64,000 nt of DNA from Pegea sp. RAD2-039 (taxonomy: Eukaryota; Chordata; Thaliacea; Salpida; Salpidae). The notes below the pieces were generated by a model. The model was not told the DNA's origin and searched no databases. It saw only the letters and a list, made by a program, of their open reading frames with translations. The DNA is taken from the NCBI GenBank assembly GCA_034620365.1, contig JAQGEQ010000305.1, forward strand, positions 1-64,000, in the 5' to 3' direction. The position numbers and the translations under genes were made by a program. Shown in pieces: positions 4,069 through 47,525 of this stretch. Position 1 is the first letter of the stretch. Each line of letters opens with the position of its first letter.

Positions 4069-7000
4069 CTAATCATAGTAACTTATTTGTAAAAAGCAAG
4101 TTCCTATTGCTTTCTGAGAAGCCTGAAAAAAAATTAAAAATTAAATTTTTAAATTATTACCTGAAAAATTGTATCTTGTTAAACTTTACTTACAGAAATT
4201 ATCACTCCATTAGGAAGAGGCCCTTTAACTGAAATAGTTTTGTGGGTTTTCCCTTTTATTTCATAAACTACTCCATCATACTCTACTGTCACATAGCCAG
4301 TCTCCTGACAAGTATCAGTTTCGATATTCTCGTATACACCAGCACTCCCAATTGCTGAAAACAGAAAGCTATTGAACAGTTTGCTTGTGATAATTAAAAT
4401 GTTATTAAATTTGATAATTTTTTTAATAATTAAAATAGTTTGTTAAACCAGCTTAATTATTAAAGTTGGTATTTGATTTACTTAAGTGAATGGCTTTTGG
4501 AGTAGAATTTGGTAATTCAGTGATAACTAGTCCTTTTGCACCTTCAGGAATTTCAAAATTTCTTCTGAGCAGTACTCCTAATTAGAAAGAATTATTTTTG
4601 ATTTAATAAGAAATAAGAGATTTACTATCATTAGGGATATCAAGTTGATAAACTTCAGAATGGAAAGTACAGCTACTTCCATCTCCTCCGCAAACTCCAC
4701 AGACATCCTTTTTTACAAATTGATCACCATGAGAACAAACAGTGTGCTGTCAAAAAGAAAATTTGATTTTTAAGTCAAGTACTTAAATTAAGAAATTTTT
4801 GTTCATAAACTTTATTCTTTATATTAAATTAAGTTCTGTTACTTCTTGTTGTTAGAAAAGCTAAAACTAGAGATTTTAGAAGCTTAACTTACATAGCATT
4901 TTCCTTGATAACAAGTACCAGATGTTTGACCAATAAAACAAGGTTGGCCATCTTCCACAAATTCAGGAAGCAGAAAAGGATCATCACATTGAGATGTTTT
5001 ACAAAACATCAAGCAAGCCTTATTTTCTTAAGAAAAAAATGACATATGATTTGTTTAAAAATAATTTTTCAATAGTTTTTAGAATCTACAAACCATTTGT
5101 TTGGTAGGCTGGTAGCAGGCTTAATTCATTGCACCTTTGTTTACGATAATAAGGTGTTACGATGTTTTCAGAGCTGCCATCACACTTAACAAAACAAGGT
5201 GTAACTTCTGACGAATTACCTTTGCAGTCACTACCTCCATCTAAAGGCCTATAAGATCATAATAAAGCTTTGATTGCTATTGTTGTCTATTATACAAATT
5301 TAGTAGAATTCCTTAAGACTTACGAAGGTGAATCACATTTTCTAAATCTAGACTGAACTCCAGGACCACATTTTGATGAGCAGTCAGACAAAGTACTCCA
5401 GCTACCCCAATTTCCATTAACTTTGTTTTGTTGCAAAAAGTTTTGCATGCCAGCTAAACAACGCCCTCTTATACAAAACTGTAAAGCAAGAAGTTGTGAA
5501 AGTTGTTTCAGAAACTGTAGAATACATCATAGAAAGTTAAAAGTCTGTACTTACACTATTTGGTCCGCATTTAGTTCCACTTAGAACAACACTACCTTCA
5601 GAGAACACAGCTTCTTGCGAAATAAAAGTAATCGGCTTCATACACCAAAGTTTACCACAGATGTTTGTAAGCATCTAAAAGAAATCTATTTTTAGATAGT
5701 TTTACAACTGAGCCTTAACGAAATTTATATTTCTGTATAAGTTTCTTATATCAGTGTAAGAACAAAACAATTCATTAGCTGTTATCGAATTTAAGAAAAT
5801 CTGTTATTTTCTCAGTTAAGAACCTAGATATTTACCTGAGGAGCAATAACTGCACCATTACCCCACAGTCTAAAACATTGTGCATTATGTGAAAAGAATT
5901 TTCCTGGATAAGCTTCAAATTGGCCCAGAGGCTTGACTTGCTTATTAACTAAGCATGTAAGACGTCTGAAAATTGTATCAAAAATATATTTTTTTTATCA
6001 AGTATATAAGTTATTAATAAAACAATATTCTATTTGACACATTGATTTAAAAGCAATTAACTTACGAGCTTTTTTCAAGAGAAGCAATAGAACATTTTGA
6101 CCAATGCAAAGAGTTAAGTCGTGGTAGTTTCAAAATAGAGGTGACAAAGTCGTGTTGCCGAAATTTACAAGTTGTAAATTCAACTGGGACAACGTGAAGC
6201 CTACAGAAAATAGAAAAATAAAAACCATTATCTATAAATATAATCTATAAACCAAAGGTAAACATACGCAAATGCAATGCTTTGTGTCAGTCTGAGTATT
6301 GTAGATGAGCCTGAATCTTGTACGCTATAAATTGGAGTTTCTTCTTCGCAAACAAATCTTTTAAAATTCATTTCTAAAAAATGCATACAAAAGTAATGGT
6401 AATTGAACCAATCAAATTAGATATTTACTTTTCATTACGTAGTTTTCGTTTGCGAGTAGAATTACGATATCTAACTCATCTATTTCAGCTTGTGCTTCTA
6501 ATTGAAGATGTGACATCACAGCCTCTAAACCAGAATTAACTGCAACTCGATGAACGTTTTTACTCTGTTCGAAAAGTGAAATCGTTTGTAACTTACAACT
6601 GTGTTTGCACAAAATCAGCAAGTGATAGTGTTTGGATTAAAGTAAAAATGAAAGAATTTTTAATACCTGAGCAAGATCTAGCTTCATAATCTTTTCCAAA
6701 CTAATCTTTATGTCTAACCCCTTTCGTTTAAGTTGAATGTGTTGAAACAGTCTATTTGTCTTGAAAATATTTTATCAATAAGAATTTTGTAAAAAATATA
6801 TACTTTTATACTAACTTATAATTATTACTTAGTAAAATCAAATCATTAGAAAATTAATATACCTCGTAAACCAAGTAGTTGATCCAGCTATCAATACCTA
6901 TGGTTGAATGTTTTCTTATAACTTCTGCAGACACAACAACTCCAATCTTAACTGTGTATGAGTACTTTTGTGGATAATTAAATACTCGTTGAATACGTTG

Positions 7001-8820
7001 AATAGTAGCATTGAACTTATTCGGAGCAACACTATCCTCAAACATTTTAGTAACTAAAAATATTTAAATTGTTTATCAAGTTTATTCATCTTGAAAAATA
7101 ATGTTTAAAATACGTTTATATTCAAGCAAAAAATAAACTGACACAGTTTTGGTCAGTTAGATTAATTCTTTTACTTACTTGAGCTAGTTAAAATAAAGTT
7201 TCATAAAGATTTTATTAGAAGTAATTTTTAAAAGAAACCACAAAAACCATTTTACAAACAACTTCTTAACTAACTAATTGTCTTGTCGAATAGAAATTTA
7301 TGCCGGCCTGCTTCTTTGTTCATTACATAATCCAAGCCTACAATAAACAGTCAAAATTATTTCTTGCATATAACTTAGTTAAATATAATAAGTAAAGCAA
7401 ATATGTGATGGTAGGATAAGTTAGCTATTAAATTTATTTATTTTGATTATCTTAAATAATTCACTGAATACTTTTAATGAATACTTTTGATTGTAAGCAT
7501 TTTAATTAAAAAGAAAACTTACCAAGAAGGTTGTTTTTTCTTTCATTTGAGAAGGTTAACCCTGAAGAAGTTGTTTTTAATGAATCATTTTTCAATAAAA
7601 TAGAATCAAACAATGGCTACTTACAAAGTTCTGGGTCAACCCAAACCTCTGGAGTTAGCGTCAAAGTATCACTACCTGGCGTCCAATCAGTTGAATCAGT
7701 TGGAAAGTTATCATCAAATGTTGGTAGTAAAGAAACTATTAAAAATTAATATTTGAAAAAAAGCTAGAAACAACCAATTAAGCTGAAAGTATTTTCTTGT
7801 CTATTTACTTGTTAACTACTCTAATAGTATTTAAACAAAACATCTTATGAATATTTTCATCAATTAACGAGAGATATACACTTGTTAATATTTCAACAAA
7901 GTAACGAAAGGAGAAACAAGTTACATTTTAGATACAAATCTTTCAAACTTTCAAATTATAAATATTTTAAAGATACTTTAATAAGATAACAAAATTGAAA
8001 ATAGTTTCTTTAAATATAACTTTTAATGTTGATTACTTACGAGAGTGGTGAATATTTTTTAGGTATTTTTTGTATTTGTACATTACAACTTCGGCCGGAT
8101 TCCTTCGCACCAAAAAGTATCGATATTCTCCATTAATGATGAAAAAACCAAACTAAAAGTTAAATAAATTAAAAGAACTGATGCTTATATTGTCAAATAG
8201 TTGTACTAACTTTTTGGCAAACGTTGTAATTTACAAATGTCTTACTAATGGGAACTTTTTCACTTGGTAAATGTGATTCTGAATTCAGCAAATGTCCCGT
8301 TAGCATACAAGTATAATTTGATAAAACATTTGTTTCGAGCTCCATATAATATGGCTGTACACCTCTCACATTTTTGAAGAGCTTTAGGTAAACTTTTTGG
8401 GGACTGGAAGCTAATTGAGGATGCTGAGTCAAGACACGATCATAAACTGGTAATGCTGTATCTGAATATCCAAAGTTGTATTGATGATTAACGCTCTTTA
8501 CTAGAGCACCAACAACATTATCAGAAATTAAATTCATGTTAGAATCAACCACGTTGATGTGATATGAACCCATGAATTTTGGTCCAGAATCTGTTTTAAA
8601 AATATAATAAAAGTTTGTTTTCATGACTTGCTTTTAAAATGAAAACACTTACTAAGTCCTGATACCTTAAAGGGATTGGTAAGTTCAGCAATCTATAAAA
8701 AACAGTTTTGAAAAAAAATATTTACTGAATTGTTTGTTACTAAAACTAGTCGTAATTTGAACTGACTTGTACTAAGAGTAATAAACAAAAAACTCCGACA
8801 AATTTTCCTCCAACGTCCAT
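4069..8820 (-). CDS. ADAMTS-like secreted pseudoprotease, gene A (complete)
   Basis: Twenty coding exons give an 849-aa protein with no phase conflict: 8820-8767, 8692-8653, 8590-8211, 8152-8041, 7735-7625, 7561-7523, 7053-6863, 6759-6667, 6591-6429, 6373-6268, 6200-6066, 5965-5836, 5674-5555, 5478-5324, 5248-5094, 5026-4893, 4746-4626, 4577-4482, 4354-4194 and 4122-4069. Domain order: signal peptide (1-18), prodomain (to about 245), M12B metalloprotease-like region (about 250-475), disintegrin-like part with LWC and TKCG (476-565), thrombospondin type 1 repeat starting WGSWSTLSDCSSKCG (about 582-632), Cys-rich region ending DVCGVCGGDGSSC (to about 735), and a short spacer ending at residue 849. 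The order matches ADAMTS proteases, which cut extracellular matrix. Here the zinc site is replaced by TQSIAFALHVVP, so no histidine triad or catalytic glutamate remains. A scaffold or inhibitor role outside the cell is inference. Near-identical to gene C, which is inverted and truncated. Confidence 0.85.
7263..7337 (-). other. possible alternative (poison) exon inside gene A
   Basis: Between the 6th and 7th coding exons of gene A, a good acceptor opens a frame in phase with the upstream exon. It reads about 22 residues (GLDYVMNKEAGRHKF and a few more) and then stops. Skipping it joins the flanking exons in frame, so it is not needed. The same stretch and stop occur in copies B (about 39906-39973) and C (about 54472-54540). 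Inclusion would give a short secreted protein of signal peptide plus prodomain. It could equally be ordinary intron. Confidence 0.25.
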
Positions 8821-13907: not shown

Positions 13908-15852
13908 TTAATTATCATCAACTGATGAGCTTTGACGGGTAGCTTCATCGATTGGTCTTCTCTTCACATTTAATAGATTCTCACGAAGTCTACGATTGAA
14001 TTCTATTCCAGATTGAAACATCTGCTGAGGTGTTTGCTTTAACAAATGAATAGAATAAACTGGAACTTCATCATTATCGAAATCAGAAGAGCTACTTTTA
14101 TCCAGCCAAGTTGAAGGAATTCGAAGCTGAGAACGGATCATGAAGTTATTAAAACAACATCTAGAAGTAGGGTAACGTTTTCTAGATACATTCAGTGCTG
14201 AAAACTTTGCAACAAACTTCTTTGAAACCTCTGAGAGTTCTTCAAAGTAAGAAGTCACAGATATTTTGTGAAGAGGTTTATTAACAAGCTGGCCGTCGAT
14301 AGCGTTAGTATGCCAAACTTGGTAGAATGCTCCGTGATCTTCAAGCTCATATCCAATATCTTTTCTAGAAATCAAGTTGATGTAGCTACTAAACAAGCTC
14401 ACAATTGATACATCGTCAAATCCATCATTATACACTCGCAATAGAACCTTTTCAGAATTACACCCAACATTCTGAACTTTTTTCTTTAAGGTTTTTCTTA
14501 AACTACGAACATTTCTCGTTGTTGCAAACTCAACATACGATTTACCTTCACTATGACCAATCTTGAAGTCAGAGAGTTTTAGATTCAAATGCTCTTCAAT
14601 CGATTTCAAGTTAAAAGTGACAATACAGTGGTAGAAGACGGCTCTTACCAGATCAAAGCTTACATCTTTATTGAAATGTTTTAATAATAATAACTTTGGT
14701 TTCGCTGGAAAGCTCGGATTACAAAATTGACCAGGCAACACAATCTTAACTGAAGGTTCAGTAAGTTTGATCAAACTTTTCTTGAGTTCTTTCTTTTTGT
14801 AATCTTCGTTCTTCAACTTTTTAATTTTTTGATATTCTGTGTCAGAATCTTTCACCACTCGCTGGATAGTCTTCATAAAACTGATATTTTGTCTTCCAAC
14901 ATGTTTTTGTAAGTAACCTTGGAGACCCGACAAAATCTGCTTCAATGTGCGTGAAGTAAATATCTTATTGCTTTTTGTCAGCTTTTCCTGCAAATAAAAA
15001 CGAAATACTTTTTGACTAAAATTTGTATCAGTCATTTACCTCAATGAAATAATAAAACCAGAAATTGAGCTGTTTATCAGTAGCAAGTCCCAAATCTAAT
15101 GGGACACTCTGCTTGCCGTTGAACTGTTGATTCTACAAAACAAAAGATGTTCAGTAAAAAATAAAACACAAAAGTATCTTTAACTTACTTTTATATTTCG
15201 TTCTTTCGCCCATTCAAGCCATAAATTAAATGAAGAGAAATTTTGTTGTCTTAGTTGATCTGAAATATCATCACAATCCAGAGGCTCTACATCTTCACCA
15301 TAATTCAATGGTTGAGCTTCATTCACCAACTTCTTGTCACTTTCAAGTGGATCAATGATTTGAGCACCAGAATGAGTAGCTAAATTTTGACCTGTTTGTG
15401 AAGATATTAGAGCAGTTTAAGACACAGATGTAAACAAAACTATCCAAAAACCAACCTGCTACTATCTTGTCTGTTCGTAGCTTCATTTTCTTTTTGAATT
15501 TATAAATACCAGTAGTTGAAGTCTTAAACTTTTTAAAGTCTTCTACCCATTTATTTAAGTTTTCCATTTTTGAACGCTTACTATCTCTATGAAAAAGATT
15601 AGTTGCTGTTCTTTTCTTAATTAAATCATCTTTTCTAAGATGTTTCATTAACTTTATGCTTCTTTCCCCATCTGTTGAAGGTGGATGTTTTGAAAGAACA
15701 GTACCATTCTGATCATTTTCTTCAGCTTTTTCAAACTTCTTGTCTTTATGAGAAACTTTCTTTTCAGAAGCCTGATCAATACCTTTAAGTAGATTCTTTA
15801 ATTGGTAACCTTTCCGATTCCTTTTGCTTGATGAATCTTGTAATCGATTCAT
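13908..15852 (-). CDS. DUF3504 / Crypton-recombinase-like protein (domesticated)
   Basis: Four exons (15852-15456, 15391-15189, 15132-15040, 14987-13908) join in phase to 590 aa. The N-terminal 150 residues are lysine-rich and charged. Residues about 180-260 carry the core-binding part known from QRICH1, ZMYM2/3/4 and related proteins: FNLWLEWAKERNI, then NFWFYYFIE, then FTSRTLKQILSGLQGYLQ. The rest extends through a likely tyrosine-recombinase-like fold (for example KPLHKISVTSYFEELSE) to a serine-rich tail. In that family the domain comes from Crypton DNA transposons captured as host nuclear proteins. Three phase-consistent introns, no internal stop and no visible terminal repeats point to a host gene. 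I could not assign the recombinase Arg-His-Arg-Tyr residues by eye, so activity is unknown. The continuous frame at 13908-15035 is only the last exon read through its intron. The ATG at 15852 is the first in the open exon. Confidence 0.7.
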
Positions 15853-19266: not shown

Positions 19267-19810
19267 TCAATCTCGTAAATGTGACCTGAACAGATTCGAT
19301 TTTTTTAACATCATTAACTTGACATGGCATTCATGTACTAACATTGTATTCAAGAATTGGACATACATACAATTTGAAGAGGTTGATAAAATACATGGGT
19401 CCTTAGAACTAAAGGTCTTTATAATAAGGAAGACAAGGTTGATTGATTTTCCAAAGATTTTGGAAACATAACTGCGCCATTTAAAGTCAGATGATAGAGT
19501 AATGCCAAGGTCAAGGACCGAAGATATTCGTTGAATAATGAATCCATTGATGGAGTATTGGTTCAAGGAATTTGTAGCTGGTTTACGGGAGAAAGTTATA
19601 AGTTCAGAATTTGTGGGCTGGATTCTGAGCTACCAGTTCGTAGGCCATTTCTACAGTGTGTAGTGCAGTTTGAAATTTTGAGGGATTGTAAGATAGCAAC
19701 TTGATGTCATCTGTATACACACTGACATCATCTACTGCTACTAATCGTCTGATGAGGTCTTCAATGAAAATTAAAAAGAGTTTTAGTCTATTGCGGCAGA
19801 GTCTAAACCA
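19267..19810 (-). mobile_element. non-LTR retrotransposon fragment (RT 3' part), decayed
   Basis: Reading the minus strand, the fragment covers the end of a reverse transcriptase domain. A YTDDIKLL segment stands for the catalytic YADD motif (about 19730). After a stop in about the middle of the fragment comes the thumb region, with LDLGITLSSDFKWRSYVSKI and FSSKDPC, as in Jockey/CR1-like elements. Stops and frame breaks make it inactive. The part around YTDD is about 90% identical to the relic at 37155-37885, so both belong to one family. Confidence 0.75.
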
Positions 19811-24169: not shown

Positions 24170-26814
24170 ATGGAGTCTTCAGGAAAAAACACTTTAACTC
24201 CTAATGGCATATCATTTAATGATAAAAGCAGAATAATTCAACAACAATCATCGAATAATGATGATTTACAGCAGCAACGGTCACACATTCCTCAAAAAGG
24301 AAAACACCAAACTGTATGTTTACTTATTCAATAATAATTTCAATTTTAATTTGAGTCTGCTTTGTTATGTTGTTTTTAAATATTTTGGAAATACACACTT
24401 TGTTGTAAACCTTGAATTTTAGATATAAAAATTATAATCAAGTCACCAGCAAAATAGCTGAATTTATTTTCATTCTAATTTCAACTCAAACAAATTAATC
24501 AATTTGATATCAAGGAACACAATGATAATGGCCAAACAGTTTCAACCAACAATCTAAATCTTGAAGCCATCAAGTCAAGAAAGAAATCTTACAGATGCAG
24601 AATTTGTGGAGTGAATTTTAACTTTAAATTTATCTCAGTAAACCTCAATCAACAATTAATGTTTTTTAACAGGCGGTATTTCCTGATAGAAGCTCCTTGA
24701 TAAGCCATTCACGCACTCATAAAGATCCAAAAGACAAACCTTATAGGTAATTCAGACTCTTGAAGTCATAATTGTAATATATTTAAATTAGTTAATAAAC
24801 GTTTTTCAAATGAAATCAAATAGTTATCTGTTTGAACAACAAGTTTTCAATCTTTTAACTTGTTCATTCTGTTTTATATAAAGGATAAGTTTGTTGTATT
24901 GCTTTAAACAATTTTAAACTAATTAAAACATTTTAGTTCCTGCTGTTTACTATTGTAATTTGTCATGTACTAAATCTAACACAGTTGCAGACATTGCGAT
25001 AAAATCTTTTTGACAAAGGCTTTGCTGGAGCAACATATGCAAACCCATAGTGATTATAAGCCATTCAAGTGCCGGTATTGTCCTCTTTCTTTCAAGCGTT
25101 TAAACCATTGCAAGCAACATCTGAGGTTCTACTTTGTATATCAAAAGATTTCTTATGATTAGATTTGTTTACTAATTTGCTGTATCTGTTTAAAATATGT
25201 TTATAAAAGGTTTTAAGTTTTAATTATGCTTGTTTTATAGTTATATAAAATATTTATAGGTCATAGTACATGATGGCCTACTTCGGGCGAAAATGTATAG
25301 ACCAAACTAGTTGTATCTTGTTCTACGTGAAATTCATCACAAACAATCATATTTTAGTTTACATACTGGAGAACGTCCGTTTAGTTGTGACTGGCCTACT
25401 TGTGGACGATCATTTAAACAGCTAGCTCACTTATTGGCCCACAAAAAGAGACACAAAAATAAGTATGTTGCAATGTTTTCCAAATTTTTAAGATCAACTA
25501 ATTACTTCTAGATATTTTTGAACTTGATGCGTTGAAATTGACATAGAAGTATTTCTTGGCATCATTTTATATATATCTTTATTTTAGTTGCTTAAGATGT
25601 CCTACTTAACATTTTTCAGTTTAACCGAAAACGGCAAATCTTATGAGGCTGGACGTAGCTTCAATTTTACAGAAAACATGCGGGAATTAAGAAGAAGCTC
25701 TAAAGAAACATTTTCCCAAGAAAATGTAAATTATTGATTGATTGTTTCTTATCAAAATAGCTGATATAACCCAAGCTTATTTTCTCTGCAGAATCCGTCT
25801 ACATCTAATTTTTCAAATACATCTTATGTAAAGGAACCAGTGATTGCTGCACAAATTGCACCAGCCCGTGTCGATCAGGATAAGGCAAAAATCGTTCCTT
25901 ATATGTGTGTAAAATGCTCAAAACTATTTGCTTGCCAAAGAAAATATTTGGAGCATCAAGCGCAGTGCATAGAAAAGTTTCAGCAATCAGCTTCAACTAC
26001 TGTCTCCGAAATTAACAATTCATTTCCAAACAAGATTGAATCAGACAAAATGGTCTCATCTGGAAATGAATTGAGTAATTCAAGCACGAAATATGTAACC
26101 ATAATTGAAAATGAGAACGCACAACAGTTAATGGACGATTTATTTAAGGTTATTTCTCCTTCAGATGTAAATACCTCTCAGAGTGACATCCAGGTTTCGT
26201 CAGGATACGAGTTTTCTGCTAGCAATATGTCCAGTAATCAAATCTCTTTGGATAACTGTTATTCTCACCAAACACCTAGTTTAACCGAGACGATGGTGAA
26301 TGATGTTGGCTACAATAACTCAAGCATTCAAAGTGAAAATCCTTTTATACAAAACTTTAACCAACAGCAACAGTTACCCAACAACTCCAACTTTCAAGAG
26401 ATGAATATTAATTTTCATGGTGATATTCAAACACCAACAAACAATGAGTTTGCTGCCAACAATACATCAAAATCTAATGACTCGAACGTTCAAAGTAGAA
26501 ATCTACTCATAAAGGATAGTAACCAACAGCAACAGCAAGTCAATCCTGTATTTAATAATGACACTTTTCGTGATGGCTCTCAAGTAACTCAAGGACATGA
26601 GTTTGCTCCCAACAATGCATTGAGCAGTCGAGCCTATTTAGTCAACACTGCTACCAGTAAACCACCAACACCAACAATAACTGAATCTGTCTCTGACTCT
26701 GAATCGTTACAATGGTTTATGTCAGAAACAGAAGCTTTAGAAGATTTCGAATATGGGCCAGAACTTATGGATATGGCCTTAAACGAATACGAACCTTTCT
26801 TTGACTCCCCATAA
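24170..26814 (+). CDS. C2H2 zinc-finger transcription factor with acidic tail
   Basis: Seven exons (24170-24313, 24515-24610, 24673-24746, 24985-25125, 25358-25462, 25620-25725, 25792-26814) join in phase to 562 aa. After a Q/N-rich start come four C2H2 fingers at about residues 74-94, 106-126, 135-156 and 160-185. Spacing is Cys-x2-Cys-x12-His-x3-His, with x4 between the cysteines of finger 4 and a HTGERPF linker before it. A fifth, C2HC-type finger sits at about 261-281. The last 260 residues are rich in Asn, Gln and Ser. The protein ends in an acidic stretch (ETEALEDFEYGPELMDM), which looks like a transactivation region. Introns split fingers 1 and 3. The finger array implies nuclear DNA binding. 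The target and orthologue are not recognisable to me. A minisatellite starts 346 bp after the stop. Confidence 0.8.
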
Positions 26815-27160
26815 ATTTTGAAGAAACATTAGAAAATTTGTATTTGCGAGATAGCTGTACCCTTTTTTAGTAATGTATTCACGATCTTCACGTCGTCTTT
26901 ACTTAAACTTTCTTTACCAGACGCCAATATTTTCGAAATTGTTCTTGAATATAAATTCTAAATCGATAGAAATTATGTTTTTCGCTTTCATTCATTATTC
27001 ATTAGTTTAATTCTTATAATGTTTAATACAACTTTACTTCTAAATTATTCCAACTCGCAGAAATTATTTGAATTAAATTATAACTGCTGTTTATTGTATA
27101 ATAGTATTCCTGTTTTTTCTAAAATGAATACGTGTACTTTTATGAACAGCAAATTTCATT

Positions 27161-27542
27161 CAGTATAAAGTGGGTTCAGTATAAAGTGGGTTCAGTATAA
27201 AGTGGGTTCAGTATAAAGTGGGTTCAGTATAAAGTGGGTTCAGTATAAAGTGGGTTCAGTATAAAGTGGATTCAGTATAAAGTGGGTTCAGTATAAAGTG
27301 GGTTCAGTATAAAGTGGGTTCAGTATAAAGTGAGTTCAGTATAAAGTGGGTTCAGTATAAAGTGAGTTCAGTATAAAGTGGGCTCAGTATAAAGTGGGTT
27401 CAGTATAAAGTGGGTTCAGTATAAAGTGGATTCAGTATAAAGTGGGTTCAGTATAAAGTGGGTTCAGTATAAAGTGAGTTCAGTATAAAGTGAGTTCAGT
27501 ATAAACTGGGTTCAGTATAAAGTGGGTTTAGTATAAAGGTGG
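27161..27542 (+). repeat. 16-bp minisatellite, about 24 copies
   Basis: Unit CAGTATAAAGTGGGTT, 23 full copies from 27161 to 27528 plus one degenerate copy. Variation is almost confined to the G-rich part (tgggtt, tgagtt, tggatt, tgggct), while AGTATAAA is almost invariant. The phase is unbroken throughout, so it is an exact head-to-tail array. It follows the zinc-finger gene and may lie in or just after its 3' untranslated region. Confidence 0.95.
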
Positions 27543-31576: not shown

Positions 31577-34500
31577 TTGTGGTTTTCCGTTGATACAGAT
31601 GCTGTTATGCGACCTCAAAACAAAACATTTCTCGCCGTCCATGACATACTCAGGAATCATGATGTCTGTAGCATCAGCATCATCCTTCTTGCAGTGCAAT
31701 ATACAGCATCTTCTTGCTAAATTAAAGAAAAAATATCAAATTGGTATAAAATTGTCAGATAGTTGCTTAAGATTACTGCTATTCTATCACTCATCCAAAC
31801 AAATCAAACAAAATGAGTTTAAGAACTTAGTTGGAATCAATACTTACAATCTTCAGTTAAAACAGGAACAAGACCAAACTGTCGGCAGCGAGTTAGTCGA
31901 TAATCAATTGGTGTTTCATCAATACAGTCATTAGTACAAGCCTCTTTTTCTATCGAGTTAGATAAACAATCTATTCCACCATTAGCTGGACTGAAAAATA
32001 GAAATTTGTGTTTCACAAAATGATCAGATGCAAGTTCAGGAACTCATTTTCTTACCTAGGCGAATCACATTTTCGTTTTCGATATCTCAATCCAGCTCCA
32101 CATTTCGGGAAACATTTTGACCATTTTGACCACTTACCCCAGCTCCCATTTACGACTTTGAGTTTTGGTACTGATGATTTATCAAAACATTCGTTGTCGA
32201 TACAATGCTGAAATTAGAATAGATTTTATTTAAAAATCAGTACTATCTGTAAACAAACTTTTTTCAAAAAGATAGTTTCAGGCACAGTTGTTAAACATTT
32301 TTTGTACAAACAAAGAACACTTACCTTGTTCAAGCCACATCCTGTTCCTTCCAAAACTGTCGCCATATTACTTCTAATCTTCTCTTTTCTTTCAAACTCT
32401 ACACCTTCATCCATGCACCATAAAGTTCCACAAGGGTTTTCAATCATCTTTTAGAAAAAAAATTAGGTTTTAGATTTTCATCAGCTTAAGTAATAGAGTA
32501 AAATCTTGAAATTATTTGTCTTTTAACCTTTGGAGCCATTGAATAGCTTTTTCCATATATTATTTTGCATTGTTGATCTATAGTGTATCTTCTACCAATA
32601 TAAATATCAACTACATCGTTTTGCTTCACTTCCTGATTTATAAGACAAGAAATAGATCTGAAATAAGTAAAAGTAAAATTTCGAAATAAATTCAGATAAA
32701 GTGTAAATCTTTTACGATGTGTTTCCTAAAGAACCCAAAGAACATCTTGACCAAGTGAAATCAGATAAAGAGGGAGGATGTGTCATATTCATCACATTGT
32801 TGAGTTCTAATCCAACGCAATCTGTTGATTCGATTGGTTTTACTCCAATACTGCAAATTCATTGATTTTTGTAAGTGTCTCATCTACTCAATTATTTCAA
32901 AATCATAAATAGTTTTAGATTAACAGCCACCAAAATTTTATTCTTTCTACTTGGTACTCACATCTGGGCAATTTTCTGTGCCATGATCATAATTGTTTTC
33001 TTTCCTTCATCTCTCAAACTAAACACTGGTGTTGCTTGACCACAAGCAGTGGTTGAATTTCCTAGATAACGAAATGATATGAAATAAATCTTTCAGATAT
33101 TTATTGGCTCTTATTTGTTTGTTATTCACCAACCTGTTGAAATGTTATGTGAATGATCTCCAAGATAAAAAATCACGTTGGATAAAAGATCACTTGATCC
33201 TTTCTCATCCTGAATTTTGAATATTTCAACAACCTTGTCTAATCCGTTATATTTTGCAGCAAGGTCAGCATTATAAGTCTGCGAACAAATTCTATTTGCA
33301 AATTTCTAAATAGTTGTTGTTACATTTAAAAATATTACGTATTTTAAAAAATATAAAAGAATAAAGTAAATTTAAAGAAAATTATTTAATTAAGGTGAAA
33401 GATTTAATTAAATCTAGTATTGGAAACATCTTTCAATAGAATATTTACCTCGAGTGCAGTAAGAAGATTTGTTTTCTGATGAACAACATTGATATCAAAC
33501 CCGTGTTTTTTGACATCAATGTTTTGGAAGACCTTGTTAACCTTCAACAAAAATAAAAATATCTTAGGAACAGTTTAATGGCTTAGTATGATAAGATGTC
33601 AGCAAGTTATTTACATTATAGACTAAATATTTGATCCAATCAGCAATATTCTGTATATTATGCAGGTCTGTTACGTAGTCATCAACAATAAAAGTGACTT
33701 TTATATCAAACGAAATCTTATGAGGATAATTAAAATGCTTTTGTAGAAATCTTTCAGTTTCACTGAGACCACCTAGAAAAACAATAATATTTAACTTTTT
33801 TTCGAAATTTGTTTTTAAAGTTATTGTTTACTAAATAATATATAACTAAATTAAATTAATGTCACATTTGAAAATGTTAGTTTAATAATGCATACTAGAG
33901 GATTTGTACGATAAAGATGAGATTCCATCCTCCTTTGCCAACAGAAAATCTAATGGCTTCCGTATTTCTTCAAATAAAACATTGCAAATTAGGAGTATTA
34001 TATTTTAAAAGAAAATATTAGTAAAATTGACATCACTAATAATTGTTGTTAAGTTGAAATTTGATCAATAATTTGTCTTCTACAGTTCAAAAAAACGCTG
34101 AATTACAACAGTAGCTTACTATTCAAGAGAATTCTTTTCCTTAATTTGGATTGTACAGTAGTCAATAAGACGTTTTTGGCTCCTATATAGCCAGTAATAA
34201 ACTTGTAAAACCTCAATTTGTGCAAAATGGTTCCTTGTTTCTAGAGAATAAAATTATATAAATTATACAATTACAGCGTATCAAAATATTATTTTATCTT
34301 ATGAAAATAAAAACTTGAAACTCACGGTACATATATCGTAGTTGACAATCGATTTTGAAAAATACACAAATTCCCTTCTTTGGTGACTTACTGGAAGATT
34401 AATTAATCTTCCAGTCAAGAAACATCGAGATGAATTAGATAATTCGTCGACATCATAACGATGATATGACTTTGAAACTGGGTAATCTTGAGTTTTAAAC

Positions 34501-34975
34501 TCTATATAAAAATTTTCCTCAATTTTATATGAGCCATTAATAGACATATAGATAGTATGATTTTTATTTTCTACTGCTGACTGAATTTCATTCAATTGTT
34601 CTTGGCTAAAATCTGATTCAGTTCCATTAAGTCTGCCTTGTGTTTGCAATTGGTAGATGACATTTTGTCTTATTGGGTTTTTAAGATTCGATGTAATTGG
34701 TACGAGCTGCGGTGTCAAAAGAAAGCCTTCAACCTCAGACACTTTTGGATTGGCAGAAACTATTTAAAATAAATGAGTATTTCAGGCTTAATGGATAATA
34801 TTTTATTTAATAAAACTTACAGATAGCATCAATATCTTTGCAATTTCCAACCTGAAAATAGATACAACATTTTAATTTCTAATTTAAACAAAATCTAAAA
34901 ATAGTTTGTTAAAACATAAGAACTTACCAAGATAATACTGAAGATGACAAAAACTCCAATAAGTTTTAAAAACAT
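31577..34975 (-). CDS. ADAMTS-like secreted pseudoprotease, gene D
   Basis: Fifteen exons join in phase to at least 675 aa: 34975-34928, 34851-34821, 34759-34326, 34240-34120, 33967-33896, 33772-33615, 33541-33449, 33278-33134, 33061-32962, 32850-32716, 32657-32528, 32447-32325, 32207-32056, 31990-31848 and 31716-31577. Exon sizes and phases track gene A (93, 135 and 130 nt are identical), so the two are paralogues, but the proteins are strongly diverged. Order: signal peptide (1-16), prodomain, metalloprotease-like region with FNYPHKISF and YLVYN, disintegrin-like part with LWC, thrombospondin repeat starting WGKWSKWSKC, and the start of a Cys-rich region. The zinc site reads AQKIAQIIGVKP, which aligns with AHEIGHxxGxxH with every ligand and the glutamate replaced. 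The coding end is uncertain: either read-through past 31577 or splicing to the next acceptor meets a stop within a few codons. The spacer and GVCGGDG part of gene A are missing. Confidence 0.8.
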
Positions 34976-36068: not shown

Positions 36069-37154
36069 TTGAATTGCTTAAAATATCTGCCTTTTTTTTA
36101 CAAAGATTGACAAGTTTTTTTTAATTATTTGAACATTTTCTTACCACAAATGTTGAATTTTTTATTGTATCACTTAACAAATAATGTTCTAATTAAGTTA
36201 AACGAAATTATGCTAGCTACATTTACAGTTTAGCCCTGTCAAAGCTGTCATTTAGATTTCAGAGTTGATTAATCTACATCAACTTATAATACTTTTGCCA
36301 CAATCAAATTTGTGATTGTTCAGTTCATTTGTAAGTAAAAAAACTAAACATTGATTATAATATAACAAAATTGTTTATATATTTGTTTGGCTAATTGTCA
36401 TACAAAATGATCGGATATCTAAAAGATGCACTTTTAAGAGTAACATTGGCTTAATTATTTAAGAAATTCAATCAAAAGGATTAATGAAATAAAAATAAAA
36501 AAAAAATGAATTAGAAATTCAAAAGTATGGCAAAAATTTGGAATTTCATGTGAGTTGGGACAATTTATTAAATACGAAATAATTTTCAAATACTTTTAGC
36601 TTAGTCCAACAAGATTACATATGGTAGGTTATTTATTTTGCTCTTAAATAGAAATTATCAAGAAATAGTGAAACGGAGACTGTATTATTATCAGACGGTT
36701 TCACAAGATTTTTGAAAATTTAGAAATACAGACAATGTTCCAACATTTATGCATTTGTGAAAGTTTGTTTAAAAAATGCAGGTAACTTTTTAAGGCTTTA
36801 AAACATTAAATATTACAATTTGTATTCTTAATGATCATTAAAGTAATTACAAAATTCTAAAAATAGTTTTTAAGAAACTTTATTGTATTAACTACCACTT
36901 AAATTTTATGATATGAAATATAATATGAAATGAATCAGTCTTTAAAATTTAATGAGAGTATAGTGTTTATGAGTTTAATAAAATTTTACGAAAGTAATAA
37001 ATAAAAGAAGTATATTTCTAAACATTGCAAGGTGGTCATTTAAGCACATTTTTATGTTTGTAAATATCTTTATAGTTTTGCAAACTGTATAAATTCTAAT
37101 AAATACTAATATGTTTACGATCTTTATCTGCTAAATTAACTGACAATACACAAA

Positions 37155-37885
37155 TTTGGAACAAAGCTATCTTTACTTTTATTCAAAAAAGAGGTCCCAG
37201 AAATACTGCACTTTACTATACACCAGTTTCATTGACCTCAGTTATCTGTAGAACTTAAGAACATCTCATTCACAATCATTTGATCAGTCTCTTGTTGGAG
37301 GACCACTTGAAATGGGATACCCAGCATTGCAATGTGAAACAGAGTTCTTCCATAAGTCAACATCTCTTTTTTCTTAATAAAGTTCTACCCCGTTATAAAA
37401 GTAATACTCCTTGTGACATTATATATCTCGGTTTTACTAAAGCTGTCCAACACAACAAACTAATTCTTGTTTGAAAAGATTTAAAAATAAACCTTCTATA
37501 GAAATAAACAAATTTATCTTTAAGTGTATTGAAGATTAATTGTGAGGTAAAACCAGCGGACGCATGAAGAAAGATCTTTATCTACACCCAGTCAAGTCAC
37601 CAGTAGTGCTCCTCAGGGTTCCGTTCTGGATCCCCTTTTGGTTTTGCTTCTTATTGAAGATCTTATCAAAGAACGTTTGTAGTAGATGATGATAGTATTT
37701 TAGTGTATGCAGATGATAGTTAGCTACTGTCTTGCAATCCTTTGCAACTTCAACCAGCTATACACGTTGTAGAAGTCTGGTTTATGAACTGGTAGCTCAG
37801 AATTCAGCCCACAAAGTCTGAACTTATATCTTTCTCTTGTCAACCAGCTGAACATTCACACATATGCAGCAAATTCTGAATTGAC
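37155..37885 (+). mobile_element. non-LTR retrotransposon relic in block R, copy 1
   Basis: Plus-strand reading shows a broken reverse transcriptase of the Jockey/CR1 type: PVSLTSVICRT near the start, LGFTKAVQHNKL in the F-D region (the usual FxKAFD is changed), then QGSVL-like codons at about 37616 and VYADDS at about 37707 for the catalytic YADD. Several stops and frameshifts are visible, so it is dead. Same family as 19267-19810. Ends are ragged and no target-site duplication was found. Confidence 0.75.
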
Positions 37886-39059
37886 TGACTTTGTGATAAG
37901 GCAAACTAAAACTAGTAACAGCTAGTACTAAATAAGTCTAGTAAAGTATTACTTTATATTTGGTGTACTTAAAAAAGTTACTTTTAAAACTACTTTTACA
38001 GGAACAACATTTATAGAAAGAAAGGTTGGAAAAAGTTATTAACAGTAAACTGCATGTATAAGAATGAACCAACTTAAACTATATCTTAAAGTAAAACTTT
38101 TATCACAAACATTACTGTTGAAAGGTTTTATGCTAGCTTGTGTCTATAGCATGTTAAAAACATTTTAAAATCTAACTATTGCCCTAACTACCACTACCAC
38201 CTTAACAGGCTCTTGTAATTAATATTAAAAATATTAATGCAATTTTCAATTATATAAAACAGATTTTTATTTGTTTGATTATAAATAGTCTAACATAAAA
38301 TAATTAGCTTATAAAATGTTTTTAGAGAACAATAAGATTATCATTTTCAGATACTTTGCTCTGCAACAGTATATCTTTTTATAATATTTTTTCTAACAGT
38401 TATTGTTTTATTTGATACTTTTACATCTAATCAAAATCAAATTGATCTTCATAATACTGACGAATTTATTAATTTTAGGTTGTAACTTATATTTTTTTGA
38501 ATTTGCAATTTCGAACGGCAATGCTTTTTTGATTAATAATATATATATTACTCTCTAAAGTGTTTTTGACCTTTCTATATTAATTCTACATTGTGATAGT
38601 TAAGACCTTTTCATTATCTGTTCGATCATAATATTTGGTTTTTGATCGCTATAAGAACGTTGAATCTGAGTTGCAGCCATTTATTGAATATGTAAATAAA
38701 TAAGTGATTTAACTGTTAAATATTCTTACATACAAAAGTAGAGTTCCTGATTTAACATTTTTATAATTCTTATTAAACTCATAAATAGCATGGTGTCAAA
38801 AAATGTTAAAACCTATTTCATTCGATGTAATCTATAATTGCTAATAAATAATATGAAATTTGTCAAAAATTGCTTTTATAACTTTGCAAGTATGTTAATG
38901 CTTTAATGATTTTACAAATTATATACTGTAATGTGACTACTTTAAAGCCTTAAAAGGTCGTCTACTTTTTGAGACAAACCTCCGCAAACTTTTTAATGTT
39001 GAAACAGTTTGTATGTATTTCTAAATTTTCAAGAAGTTTGTAATTAAGAAACACGTCTG

Positions 39060-39705
39060 GTAATCTTATAGTCTTCATCTTATTATTTCTTGATAAGTAT
39101 TTTGTAAGTACAAATAAGTAACGTAATCTTAGCGGAATAAAACTGTTTACAAAAATATTTTGTAATTAATAAATTATCCATACACATTTGTAATGTTTGC
39201 TCAACTATGTTTTCTGTTTCTTATCAATTGACAAACCAATAAAAAGTTTAAAAATTACATTTAGTTTTAAGCAAGAGATTGAGAAATTTGAAAATGATTT
39301 GCAAAAGGATTTCGAATTGTTTTTATCTTCAATCGTTAAAACATACTTCCGGGTGGAAAAATGGTCGTAAAAAGAAAAACTTCTTAAGTTATTAATCAAG
39401 TCTTACTCTAGATAGGACTCCTTTAAATATCTGATGATATTGTGCAAAAATCCATCAAATATATAAACAATTTTGTTTTTATTAAAATCAATGTTAAGCT
39501 TTTCTACCTACAAATAAACTGAACAATCACAAATTTGATTGAGGCAAAAGTATTATAAGTTGATGTAGATTAACCAAATCTGAAATCTAAATGACAGCTT
39601 TGAGAGGGCTAAATAGTAAATGTAGTTAGCATAATTTTGTTTAAATTATTTAGAATATTATTTGTTAAATGATACAATAAAAAATTCAACATTTGTAAAA
39701 AAATG
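39060..39705 (+). promoter_or_regulatory. 5' flank of gene B, inverted match to gene A flank
   Basis: Reverse complement of about 10690-11340 with a few percent differences, including the recurrent 64-codon frame on the minus strand (39205-39399) that is conserved only by duplication. It would be the distal upstream region of gene B. The proximal promoter and first exons that still follow it in copy C are deleted here. Confidence 0.5.
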
Positions 39706-40191
39706 ACAGATTTTGTGCATGAATAAGTTTTCTTTTTAATTAAAATGCTTACAATCAAAAGTATTCATTAAAAGTATTCAGTGAATTATTTAAGATAATC
39801 AAAATAAATAAATTTAATAGCTAACTTATCCTACCATCACATATTTGCTTTACTTATTATATTTAACTAAGTTATATGCAAGAAATAATTTTGACTGTTT
39901 ATTGTAGGCTTGGATTATGTAATGAACAAAGAAGCAGGCCGGCATAAATTTCTATTCGAAAAGACAATTAATTAGTTAAGAAGTTGTTTGTAAAATGGTT
40001 TTTGTGGTTTCTTTTAAAAATTACTTCTAATAAAATCTTTATGAAACTTTATTTTAACTAGCTCAAGTAAGTAAAAGAATTAATCTAACTGACCAAAACT
40101 GTGTCAGTTTATTTTTTGCTTGAATATAAACGTATTTTAAACATTATTTTTCAAGATGAATAAACTTGATAAACAATTTAAATATTTTTAG

Positions 40192-41813
40192 TTACTAAAA
40201 TGTTTGAGGATAGTGTCGCTCCGAATAAGTTCAATGCTACTATTCAACGTATTCAACGAGTATTTAATTATCCACAAAAGTACTCATACACAGTTAAGAT
40301 TGGAGTTGTTGTGTCTGCAGAAGTTGTAAGAAAACATTCAACCATAGGTATTGATAGCTGGATCAACTACTTGGTTTACGAGGTATATTAATTTTCTAAT
40401 GATTTGATTTTACTAAGTAGTAATTATAAGTTAGTATAAAAGTAATAATTTTTTACAAAATTCTTATTGATAAAATATTTTCAAGACAAATAGACTGTTT
40501 CAACACATTCAACTTAAACGAAAGGGGTTAGACATAAAGATTAGTTTGGAAAAGATTATGAAGCTAGATCTTGCTCAGGTATTAAAAATTCTTTAATTTT
40601 TACTTTAATCCAAACACTATCACTTGCTGATTTTGTGCAAACACGGTTGCAAGTTACAAACGATTTCACTTTTCGAACAGAGTAAAAACGTTCATCGAGT
40701 TGCAGTTAATTCTGGTTTAGAGGCTGTGATGTCACATCTTCAATTAGAAGCACAAGCTGAAATAGATGAGTTAGATATCGTAATTCTACTCGCAAACGAA
40801 AACTACGTAATGAAAAGTAAATATCTAATTTGATTGGTTCAATTACCATTACTTTTGTATGCATTTTTTAGAAATGAATTTTAAAAGATTTGTTTGCGAA
40901 GAAGAAACTCCAATTTATAGCATACAAGATTCAGGCTCATCTACAATACTCAGACTGACACAAAGCATTGCATTTGCGTATGTTTAACTTTGGTTTATAG
41001 ATTATAATTATAGATAATGGATTTTATTTTTATTTTTTCTGTAGGCTTCACGTTGTCCCAGTTGAATTTACAACTTGTAAATTTCGGCAACACGACTTTG
41101 TCACCTCTATTTTGAAACTACCACGACTTAACTCTTTGCAATGGTCAAAATGTTCTATTGCTTCTCTTGAAAAAAGCTCGTAAGTTAATTGCTTTTAAAT
41201 CAATGTGTCAAATAGAATATTGTTTTATTAATAACTTATATACTTGATAAAAAAACATATTTTTGATACAATTTTCAGACGTCTTACATGCTTAGTTAAT
41301 AAGCAAGTCAAGCCTCTGGGCCAATTTGAAGCTTATCCAGGAAAATTCTTTTCACATAATGCACAATGTTTTAGACTGTGGGGTAATGGTGCAGTTATTG
41401 CTCCTCAGGTAAATATCTAGGTTCTTAACTGAGAAAATAACAGATTTTCTTAAATTCGATAAAAGCTAATGAATTGTTTTGTTCTTACACTGATATAAGA
41501 AACTTATACAGAAATATAAATTTCGTTAAGGCTCAGTTGTAAAACTATCTAAAAATAGATTTCTTTTAGATGCTTACAAACATCTGTGGTAAACTTTGGT
41601 GTATGAAGCCGATTACTTTTATTTCGCAAGAAGCTGTGTTCTCTGAAGGTAGTGTTGTTCTAAGTGGAACTAAATGCGGACCAAATAGTGTAAGTACACA
41701 CTTTTAACTTTCTATGATGTATTCTACAGTTTCTGAAACAACTTTCACAACTTCTTGCTTTACAGTTTTGTATAAGAGGTTGTTGTTGGATTACTTTGGG
41801 ATTTGCTGGTTGA
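40192..41813 (+). pseudogene. ADAMTS-like gene B, truncated at both ends
   Basis: Seven exons equivalent to coding exons 7-13 of gene A remain (40192-40382, 40486-40578, 40654-40816, 40872-40977, 41045-41179, 41279-41408, 41570-41689), plus the first five codons of the next exon from 41766. Signal peptide and prodomain exons are deleted. At the 3' side the exon breaks off after FCIRG, and 10 foreign residues lead to a stop at 41811. The reading frame inside is intact, and an ATG at 40200 could start a cytosolic product of about 321 aa holding the dead metalloprotease and disintegrin-like parts. Without a secretion signal, a disulfide-rich domain would not fold normally, so I call it a pseudogene. 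It is almost base-identical to the same part of gene C. Confidence 0.75.
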
Positions 41814-42445
41814 ATTTTTTGATCAGCTGTAGCTTGTATTGGTAACAAAGATTGAGAAGTCTGTGACGTGGTAGGAATGAGGCGTACTGTGCAAGGTGCC
41901 CTTGTGTTGGTGTTTTGATTGATGGTTTGAATTGTAAAAGTTTGGTTGTTGTTGCCAACTAGCTTGTTAGTTGCTTGAGTGGTTTGAAATTGAAAATTTG
42001 CTGAAGATTTTGGTTGTTTCTTGATTGAAGTTGTAAAATTTATCGTTTTTACTAAATTATTGTTGGGTGGTAACACAGAAAGCTTGACTGGTTGCTTGTT
42101 GGGTGAAATGGGAATTTTAAAACCACTTTTAATAGGAGACAACGTAACTGAGTTTTTCGATAAAGGAATTGTCTTTATATTGCGATTTGAATTTCGAACA
42201 ATTACTTTAGTAAGAAATGGTGGCTTCTTGTTTGTTACTAATGGTACTCTGGTTGGTTGAGTGGTAACTAATGGAGATTGTTGCATCACTACTTGTACCG
42301 GTGGAGTTGCCATGACAACTTTCTCTTCTGAAATATTGATTAATGATGATGGTGTAGAAGCATGTGTTGACTCATTTTCAGCTTTGATTATTTTAATCAT
42401 CTCATTATTGCATTCTAAATCCATTTGCTCATTTGATTCAGTCAT
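41660..42445 (-). CDS. truncated LIN54-like N-terminal region, chimeric tail (copy 1)
   Basis: Open frame of 261 codons. Residues 1 to about 221 are low-complexity and rich in Thr, Gln, Pro, Asn and Val, with FKIPISPNKQPVKLSVL and CTVRLIPTTSQTS. These resemble the N-terminal half of the DREAM-complex protein LIN54 (SPLKSPNK and YVRL-type motifs), but such sequence is weak evidence. The Cys-rich CXC DNA-binding domain that would prove it is absent. From about residue 222 the frame runs into antisense of ADAMTS-like exons (RSCESCFRNC and on), so the native C-terminus is lost at a breakpoint near 41780. An acceptor just upstream of the ATG (about 42480) suggests a 5'-UTR intron. Converges with and overlaps gene B. 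Confidence 0.45.
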   Translation of the reverse strand: MTESNEQMDLECNNEMIKIIKAENESTHASTPSSLINISEEKVVMATPPVQVVMQQSPLVTTQPTRVPLVTNKKPPFLTKVIVRNSNRNIKTIPLSKNSVTLSPIKSGFKIPISPNKQPVKLSVLPPNNNLVKTINFTTSIKKQPKSSANFQFQTTQATNKLVGNNNQTFTIQTINQNTNTRAPCTVRLIPTTSQTSQSLLPIQATADQKIQPANPKVIQQQPLIQNCKARSCESCFRNCRIHHRKLKVCTYTIWSAFSST

Positions 42446-45400: not shown

Positions 45401-46270
45401 CTATTTTTATTTTATCCTAATTTAAATAAACTATTTCTTTAGTTTTAAATTTGTTTTACTTTTCTTCCAAATTTTAGTTAAGTTTTATTTAAATATTTAT
45501 TAGTTTGGTTTATTTAATTTCCTGCTTTAAAGTGGTACAACTTCTACACTTTAACCATAGAAAGTTCTTATGTTTATTGAACTGAACTTTTTTCAAATAT
45601 TTTTTGGCATTTTTTCATTACCACGTAAAATTGTAATATTGTTCAGGAAGTAAACTTCCCGAAAACCTTTTACGCCATTTTAAGTGTAAACTTTTGTTTT
45701 TCTACTTTTTTTAACTTCTTAAAAATGTGTTACATCTGATATCGATTGTAATCTTCTTTTATTTATTTAAACATAGACAACTCAATCGTCTGATAATCAT
45801 CTTTTTTCATCCTGTAATCTACATCAATTTAGTGATGTAATTTAGTGATTAAAAATCCTTAATTGACTTTCACAAATCCTTCAATTATAAATTATTTAAG
45901 TTTCAATTATTTACATTATTCTTTTTTTAAATTAAATATATACCATTATCAAAACTATTTTTTGTATTTAATAAAATGCAAATTTCATTTTGAAATTTAT
46001 CAAAGTACTGTTCATCATATATAAAAAGACTGAGTTAAAATATTTTAATTACTTCTTTATCTTTAAAGCTTATGAATTGGAAAATCTGTTTAAGTGAAAT
46101 ATATATTTTCTGATCACGTTAATAGCTAAGACATTTTAATTATCTTTTCATAACATTTTTATAAACAAACTTCAGTTTTACTATCAGCAAATATAGAATC
46201 ACAAATAATATAAAATGATTCTCAATTATTATAAAAAACCAATGAAAAGACATAAGAGCTTTAATAAAAC
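42446..46270. other. intergenic in block G, copy 1
   Basis: Extremely AT-rich, with no coding exon found. One less AT-rich islet at about 44265-44385 contains TTCCCGCC (44308, an E2F-type site) and CTGCAGCG. It could be the promoter of the LIN54-like gene about 1.9 kb downstream on the minus strand. A 33-codon frame there (from 44272) is too short to call. The same islet is at about 58831-58951. Confidence 0.4.
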
Positions 46271-46274
46271 GAAC

Positions 46275-47030
46275 TTGGTCAGTGGTGTCACAGTCGCCGT
46301 GGCGTTATAGCATGTATTTGGTGAGCCACATGCCCAGTGACTTATTGGGTCCTATAGTTGGAAGTTTCTGTTCACGCCCCCAAACTTTCTGAGTAGGTAT
46401 AAACGCTTGAGTAAGTACTGCCGTCTTCTTTAGAGCATAGCCCATTAAGGCAGCATTTGCTTGGATTGTGGTCATCGCTATCACTGGAGATATTCTAGAA
46501 TTTTCTGATCGATCTGAGCCCAAGTACACTCCTGTCACGTGAATCAAAAGATGCAATGCTGAAGATGCTATGGCGGAGTAAGGGGATTTAGATGACAAAC
46601 AGGTAGGAGTAAAGAGTTGATTTCTTTTCCATTAGTTCTTCCCTCAAGTTATATTAGCTCAGACGACACACATTACATCTTAATAAGCCCATATCGCCTG
46701 GTACGTTAATCGTTCTCATATCACACAGTTAGTGCATGAAACCAGCTGCCATCAAACATTGCCATGTCAGAATCACTCGCATTGTTCAAAAAGAAGTTGA
46801 ACCTTTTCAATATTGTCACAATTGTCATTTCTAAACTGTGATTATATCTTTTTTTTATTATTACTATAATTCTGTGTAATTTTCCACTAATAAGTTTAGG
46901 GGACTTCCGAAATGCCACGTGTTACATCTTTTGCTTTCTATAATTTTGACTTGATAGATATTATTTTATGAGAATGTGTGTTAGCGAAAGGTGCTCTCTT
47001 CAGCTACCCTCTTTCGCATGGATTGTAATA
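46275..47030 (-). repeat. unclassified repeat in block G, copy 1
   Basis: Less AT-rich than its surroundings. On the minus strand its middle (46612-46835) matches the repeat at 18845-19144, and a 97-codon open frame follows (46305-46598, with VTGVYLGSDRSENSRISP). I do not recognise that frame. Because part of the unit is dispersed in the window, a mobile-element or processed-transcript origin is more likely than a host gene. Repeated at 60841-61596. Confidence 0.45.
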
Positions 47031-47525
47031 AATAAATTATTTTTATTATCCATCAAATAATTTCTTCAAAATTTTAATAACAAATGTTAAATCATGTTTT
47101 GTTGTAAGATTTTTAAAATCTAAACGTTTTTGAAAAAAGAAACTTTACCAGCTGTACATTTTGAAAAAAGATTGGTAGCTGAACCATTATTTCATTTCAA
47201 ATTTTTCAACTGAACAAAAAAAAAAATAGTTTTTCAAAGATTTTCAAAAATACTTGTAGTTTTTAGCAGAGAAATTTTTTTCTAACTTAAAAATTTCAAA
47301 CTCTCATTTAACATTTATATTACTTGTTTCTTCAAATAGTTTCACGAAAATGAGTTCCACGAATCTTGAATAAAAGCCTCTATTCATCAGCCTCTCACAG
47401 AATATATATGTACATACAATTTATCGCCAAATCAATTTCCGTTACGGTTTTTCACATTTTCTTCTTAATGGTTTCTCAACTTTCTAAAAGTGTATAGCAA
47501 TTGCTAAAAAGTAAAACATTTGTTG

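Follow-up and report, generated by a model that had tools for sequence, protein, structure and literature searches.

The window analyzed in this study, a stretch of 64,000 nucleotides of the salp Pegea sp. RAD2-039 (contig JAQGEQ010000305.1, positions 1 to 64,000), contains on its minus strand a gene of the ADAMTS type, here called gene A (8820-4069), with 21 exons encoding a predicted secreted protein of 861 amino acids (aa) that lacks a zinc site. Judged from its sequence, gene A descends from the ADAMTS family but is no ADAMTS protease. Very probably, it encodes a secreted full-length ADAMTS homologue unable to bind the catalytic zinc, within a group of paralogues (subfamilies A, E, and B) that is retained by selection. 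A previous reading made from the letters of the window (the sequence-only reading) had predicted a secreted pseudoprotease here, and this prediction is supported by the loss of the zinc site at an intron-anchored position and by a ratio of nonsynonymous to synonymous substitution rates (dN/dS) of 0.29.

Loss of the zinc site in gene A

In gene A, TQSIAFALHVVPV stands where the motif AHEIGHxxGxxHD is expected. The dead site, TQSIAF-A(intron, phase 2)-LHVVPV, spans exons 11 and 12 and the intervening intron (6066-6373, minus strand). Exon 11 (6373-6268) ends with LRLTQSIAF-GC and exon 12 (6200-6066) starts with G-LHVVPVEFTTC, with GT/AG splice sites between them. A phmmer search aligned residues 412-641 of gene A, residues 412-475 included, to ADAMTS-5 (2rjq) with an E-value of 3.5e-23. 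TQSIAFALHVVPV lies under AHEIGHLLGLSHD, and the counterpart of the dead-site stretch in ADAMTS-5 is AHEIGHLLGLSHDD. The observation of the sequence-only reading is confirmed, and the two exons lie at the positions that it gave.

A phase-2 intron one codon past the HExxH position is found in four other ADAMTS-type genes of the same genome, namely on C103 (C103:231k, AHEIGH GT|A LGMQHD), C15 (AHEIGH AA|T FGMLHD), C211 (AHEIGH AC|A LGLRHD), and C284 (VYQIGV TT|A LGIFHE), and it occupies the identical codon and phase in gene A. The acceptor side of this intron also agrees in the genes C103:164k and C46, which keep the following LGxRHD and for which no HExxH exon was seen in the stretch examined. 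Since codon and phase are shared, the alignment of gene A is gap-free, and in this gapless match H, E, H, G, H, and D are replaced by Q, S, F, H, P, and V, respectively. At the methionine of the Met-turn, the alignment shows T in subfamilies A and E, whereas B has M.

A six-frame scan for HE..H, to which intron-split motifs are invisible, showed gene A (4069-8820) to be free of any unsplit HExxH. The same scan gave four matches in the window (2075, 21641, 22525, and 26558), all outside gene A. The sequence-only reading had named RNA evidence for another exon restoring the motif as a finding that would speak against it; looked for as far as the sequence permits, as an unsplit HExxH, no such exon emerged. 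Pfam reported no Reprolysin domain in gene A at E<=1, neither in the 861-aa model nor in an earlier 848-aa model, and none at E<=0.1 in paralogue B or in C380, an E-type copy. The active paralogue C103:231k does match Reprolysin (7.6e-14) and thus shows that the method works. Against the M12B/ADAMTS profiles, which the sequence-only reading had put forward as a check, the M12B side is accordingly blank, while ADAMTS_CR_2 and TSP_1 are found. Gene A has none of the features of an ADAMTS enzyme that were considered, that is, the HExxHxxGxxHD site, recognition as Reprolysin, and a furin consensus (RX[KR]R).

Gene model and domain architecture

Gene A has an open frame with, in order, a hydrophobic signal-like start, a prodomain-like part, the degenerate M12B-type part, the WSKCS turn, a disintegrin-like domain, one thrombospondin type 1 (TSP1) repeat, a Cys-rich part, and a spacer-like end. 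The exons are located at 8820-8767, 8692-8653, 8590-8211, 8152-8041, 7735-7625, 7561-7523, and 7337-7275 (exons 1-7), 7053-6863, 6759-6667, 6564-6429, 6373-6268, 6200-6066, 5965-5836, and 5674-5555 (exons 8-14), and 5478-5324, 5248-5094, 5026-4893, 4746-4626, 4577-4482, 4354-4194, and 4122-4069 (exons 15-21), all on the minus strand. The 20 introns have a mean length of 108 bp (48-305 bp). The first automatic model counted 849 codons including the stop (848 aa), and a frame check together with exon 6759-6667 brought it to 861 aa. The intact frame described by the sequence-only reading hence stands, with its length of 849 aa revised to 861 aa in 21 exons.

The signal peptide-like start, judged by eye from the translation, and the first part of the prodomain are encoded at 8211-8820. 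The disintegrin-like (ADAMTS_CR_2) domain and the TSP1 repeat follow at 5324-5965 (PF17771, 1.3e-12; PF00090, 9.3e-9). The end of TSP1, the Cys-rich part with its motif CGVCGGDGSSC (4698-4678), and the spacer-like end, recognized by translation and motif scan, occupy 4069-5248. ADAMTS_CR_2 followed by TSP1 in the order of the ADAMTS family, the Cys-rich motif, and a zinc-site intron shared with C103:231k, C15, and C211, which keep HExxH, place gene A in this family by descent. The Pfam spacer (PF05986) is not listed for gene A and is weak in C380 (17.3 bits against a cut-off of 23.6; E-value 0.0062).

The sequence-only reading had described these ancillary parts as being in good order. ADAMTS_CR_2, TSP_1, WSKCS, and GVCGGDG are indeed present, but the disintegrin-like domain aligns with only six of the usual eight cysteines, and the TSP1 motif reads CSSKCG. 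The consensus for O-fucosylation of TSP1 is CxxS/TCG, so that this motif is lost in A, in its complete copy C12:68k, and in C380; paralogue B has KCFPKCG at the same position. In none of A, C12:68k, and C380 did a motif scan detect a furin consensus (RX[KR]R). The missing disintegrin-domain cysteines, which pair with each other in ADAMTS-4/5, are also gone in E and B. They are likewise absent from C284 (alignment) and C211 (by eye), and the losses common to these two genes and A/E/B may have a convergent origin.

Selection on gene A

The sequence-only reading had suggested measuring selection between gene A and a gene C. Should this gene C correspond to the copy at 53-56 kb, the comparison would yield no information, since the latter is a mere fragment with exons 1-14 that is 99% identical to gene A. 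The diverged copy C380 was used instead. A and C380 share 622 of 859 residues (72%), with a dN of 0.155, a dS of 0.537, and a dN/dS of 0.288 (NG86, the Nei-Gojobori method; bootstrap range 0.233-0.367 with 500 resamples). A value near 1, which the sequence-only reading had named as evidence of neutral decay, was thus looked for and is not what we obtained. The introns of this pair differ by a Jukes-Cantor (JC) distance of 0.48, near dS. All 32 cysteine columns are shared by A and C380.

With domain borders set by hand, the ratio, which marks purifying selection between A and E, is lowest in the disintegrin-like domain (0.165), TSP1 (0.19), and the Cys-rich part (0.23), followed by the pseudocatalytic part (0.29) and the signal and prodomain (0.35), and it is highest in the spacer (0.44). 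A stretch of 46 residues surrounding the dead site gives 0.47, a value based on few changes. Between A and C12:68k, spacer exon 20 holds seven of the 23 differences, all nonsynonymous (uncorrected p 3.7e-4), a cluster that may reflect diversification or gene conversion.

Copies of gene A in the genome

The genome searched for paralogues comprises 105.7 Mb, and the counts given here are lower bounds. The automatic gene finder misplaced some exons (exons 12-13 of E copies, first exons before B, and last exons of several loci), which were corrected by projection from gene A or else omitted. Besides gene A, three A-type copies are located on C12, two of them fragments in the window (at about 40 kb and 53-56 kb) and one complete (68.7-73.2 kb; C12:68k), and a contig-end piece lies on C31. 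E-type copies are found on eight contigs. The four B-type genes are located in the window, on C31 (two), and on C132. Ten of the twelve A/E copies were projected onto two references, A and C380. All 21 exons and their splice sites are intact in A, C12:68k, and C380.

Exons 11 and 12 are present in five of the eight E copies, which have TQNIAFALHVVPV (TQNIAF + LHVVPVEF) at the zinc site, and all four B genes have AQKIAQ[I/T]IGV[K/S]PI. Contig ends truncate five of the twelve A/E copies (C341, C204, C157, C223, and C379). All five are of the E type, as is expected for an unresolved repeat array. Another four are damaged or fragmentary, namely the two fragments in the window, C183 with a 34-bp deletion in exon 15, and C206, which is without exons 3-13. 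Copies found on different contigs may represent haplotypes.

The fragment at 52991-56255 (plus strand) is a 99% identical copy of exons 1-14 in which the donor of exon 7 is changed to AT and exons 15-21 are missing. The one at 39901-41689 (plus strand) comprises exons 7-14 only, has the same AT donor, and lies within a 99.9% identical segmental duplication. Paralogue B of the window (31577-34975, minus strand) has no zinc site (AQKIAQ-IIGVKPI), and no GVCGGDG or spacer exon was found nearby. Two pairs of segmental duplications were observed in the window, 39724-47524 with 54290-62090 (99.94%) and 36069-39719 with 47526-51176 (99.67%), the first of which carries the fragments of gene A. They may be very recent or an effect of the assembly.

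Active and partly degenerate relatives

Among the loci examined, at least five genes of the ADAMTS type have HExxH (C103:231k, C15, C28:774k, C28:742k, and C211), as do the further M12B loci C18:480k, C18:486k, C18:955k, C259, C12:688k, C246, C113, and C21. A search of PDB with C28:742k matched ADAMTS-4, 1, and 5. C211 keeps both HEIGH and the third H. Another form of zinc-site loss is seen in C284 (210392-213637), which reads VYQIGVLLGIFHEG. H, E, and H are replaced and the third H is kept, so that three of the four catalytic letters are lost. The M12B gene on C113 (292237-295827) has HEIGHNLGLSDD, an HExxHxxGxxD motif with D as third ligand, like the motif described for ADAMDEC-1 in passages of a review (PMC4885070).

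In trees of 13, 14, and 12 rows, A, E, and B lie together on one side of a branch with support of 100/100, 100/99, and 100/99, respectively; the tree program warns of long branches. Given this joint branch, the simplest reading of the sequences would be a single loss of the zinc site before the three subfamilies split. C284 sits on a very long branch, with 4.8-6.5 changes per column. The grouping of C211 with C103:231k is weak (86/86, 81/79). The succession from an active C211 through a partly degenerate C284 to the fully dead A/E/B genes looks like a stepwise series in which the placement of the long-branched C284, and of C211, near the ancestors is uncertain.

Other features of the window

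The window has a guanine-cytosine content of 27.2%. This value, the genome size of 105.7 Mb, and the mean intron length of 108 bp in gene A resemble those of monogonont rotifers, and from the sequence alone such a rotifer would be the probable host. Three table rows of PMC11954553 give a guanine-cytosine content of 25.5-27.6% for these rotifers, and PMC6555955 gives mean intron lengths of 118-199 bp for four members of the B. plicatilis group and 392 bp for B. calyciflorus. Searches yielded no COX1 match, no match to a bdelloid spliced-leader sequence with up to two mismatches allowed, and, with controls that were silent as well and hence little weight, neither an insect-type cuticle protein nor a nematode cuticle collagen. 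An array of about 24 copies of the 16-bp unit TTCAGTATAAAGTGGG, 95% alike, is located at 27159-27538 (plus strand). A 375-aa open frame at 13908-15035 (minus strand) matches DUF3504 (E-value 6.7e-7; 29.9 bits against a cut-off of 29.7), a domain linked to Crypton-type recombinase-derived genes. By eye, exons at 24980-26814 (plus strand) resemble a C2H2 zinc-finger protein with a glutamine/asparagine-rich tail, and 19267-19629 (minus strand) resembles the end of a reverse transcriptase of a long interspersed nuclear element (LINE), with no Pfam match at E<=0.1. A tRNA scan of the window found none.

Binding rather than cutting as the predicted role

Because every zinc-binding residue is replaced, the proteins of the A/E/B group most likely bind rather than cut. 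The protein of gene A would be secreted without removal of its prodomain and would bind through the surfaces of its disintegrin-like, TSP1, Cys-rich, and spacer parts. Its predicted role is to hold or shield matrix proteins, or to compete for the substrates of active ADAMTS enzymes encoded in the same genome. Binding of matrix proteins or of the substrates of active ADAMTSs is the most likely function of a protein that is unable to cut, has probably retained its prodomain, and shows its strongest constraint in the disintegrin-like domain, TSP1, and the Cys-rich part. The present data do not distinguish between scaffold, shield, and decoy, and the role as decoy, inhibitor, or matrix scaffold proposed by the sequence-only reading is likewise conjectural.

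Several observations weigh against a selected, zinc-less ADAMTS group. The position of the zinc-site intron is not universal, since C28:774k and C28:742k split the motif after HE with a phase-0 intron, and the anchor therefore rests on the remaining genes. The M12B part of gene A is too diverged to be recognized by Pfam. Only three of the twelve A/E copies (A, C12:68k, and C380) are complete and open. Between A and C12:68k, the newest pair, 19 nonsynonymous and four synonymous changes were counted, which gives no indication of constraint (Fisher p 0.80 against the neutral ratio), so that constraint is demonstrated for the older A-E split only. Retention by selection, as expected of a pseudoprotease, is in other words seen between A and C380 but unseen in the newest pair.

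A special case of the binding explanation, possible but held tentatively, is that gene A encodes a secreted regulator of active ADAMTSs which occupies their substrates or forms a dead complex with them (dominant-negative or decoy). The five or more ADAMTS-type HExxH genes in the same genome fit this role, as does the strongest constraint, which lies in the disintegrin-like domain, TSP1, and the Cys-rich part. On the other hand, A is only a distant relative of the active enzymes, and the weakest constraint falls on the spacer, which often serves as an exosite.

Copy number and the changes in the spacer make a role at the surface of gametes or in mating a live rival, though a rather unlikely one. 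In this case gene A would belong to a fast-evolving reproductive adhesion family amplified in an array, by analogy with the pseudoprotease ADAMs 1a, 2, 3, and 6, which act in mammalian sperm according to passages of PMC9114714. The twelve A/E-type loci and the contig-end piece, the E pieces cut at contig ends as in unresolved repeats, the wholly nonsynonymous cluster in exon 20, and the A-E ratio of 0.44 in the spacer fit such a family. However, the A-E ratio is below 1 in every part, the exon-20 cluster could reflect gene conversion, and some copies may be haplotypes.

That gene A is a decaying duplicate, a pseudogene in progress whose frame is open by chance, is improbable. Truncated copies adjoin it (exons 1-14 and 7-14), C183 and C206 are damaged, and the 19 to 4 changes towards C12:68k leave the newest pair compatible with neutrality. 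Neutral decay is rejected for the A-E interval, where dN/dS is 0.288 across 859 codons with an intron distance close to dS (0.54), and all 21 exons and 32 cysteines are retained. An error of model or assembly hiding an active-site exon is barely credible: the gene model is computed and the contig region is repeat-rich and possibly misassembled, but gene A has no unsplit HExxH, its adjacent intron has the position and phase of four other genes, and paralogues E and B are equally dead.

A broader reading, which we hold at somewhat less than an even chance, is that the group is a clade specific to this lineage, made up of naturally occurring ADAMTS pseudoproteases of full length at 17 loci of the genome, which lost its zinc site stepwise and now acts as a system of secreted binding proteins with a diversifying spacer. 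The 17 loci consist of four of the A type plus the contig-end piece, eight of the E type, and four of the B type, and include fragments, possible haplotypes, and assembly repeats.

Comparison with known ADAMTS and ADAM proteins

Gene A shares with the ADAMTS metalloproteases (ADAMTS-5, ADAMTS-13) the order of a prodomain-like part, an M12B-type part, WSKCS, a disintegrin-like domain, TSP1, GVCGGDG, and a spacer-like end. Unlike them, it is without the zinc ligands, the catalytic Glu, the furin consensus, a disintegrin cysteine pair, the O-fucosylation motif of TSP1, and a Pfam Reprolysin match. Non-catalytic ADAMs (sperm ADAM1a, 2, 3, and 6; ADAM22) likewise have an M12B domain without a working zinc motif and, in the portions of the literature consulted, are described as having binding functions. 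They are membrane-anchored and have no TSP1 or spacer, in contrast to gene A, and the two probably have separate origins.

ADAMTSL proteins and papilin are also non-catalytic secreted relatives of ADAMTSs, thought to be architectural or regulatory in sections of two reviews (PMC4448532, PMC4885070), but ADAMTSLs are without the protease and disintegrin-like domains, both of which gene A retains as regions. ADAMTS10 resembles gene A in that its furin site is degenerate, and it is portrayed in parts of the literature (PMC12489390, PMC4448532) as a poor protease with a proposed non-proteolytic role in matrix assembly. Given a canonical furin site, however, ADAMTS10 does cleave fibrillins according to part of PMC12489390, so that its catalytic site, in contrast to gene A, works.

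The zinc motif is lost in eight of 21 human ADAMs, while all human ADAMTSs are predicted to be functional in the relevant passage of PMC4448532; a group of ADAMTS pseudoproteases that is natural and of full length is therefore unusual. In the titles and abstract openings of the papers listed by searches of open-access literature, no naturally dead ADAMTS is described, and the catalytically inactive ADAMTSs found in these excerpts are an engineered mutant and ADAMTS17 in patient cells. A function apart from cleavage is raised as an open question for ADAMTS10 and 17 in part of PMC12489390. A constrained, catalytically dead ADAMTS group that keeps the whole architecture would represent a natural separation-of-function experiment for the roles that ADAMTS proteins have without cleavage.

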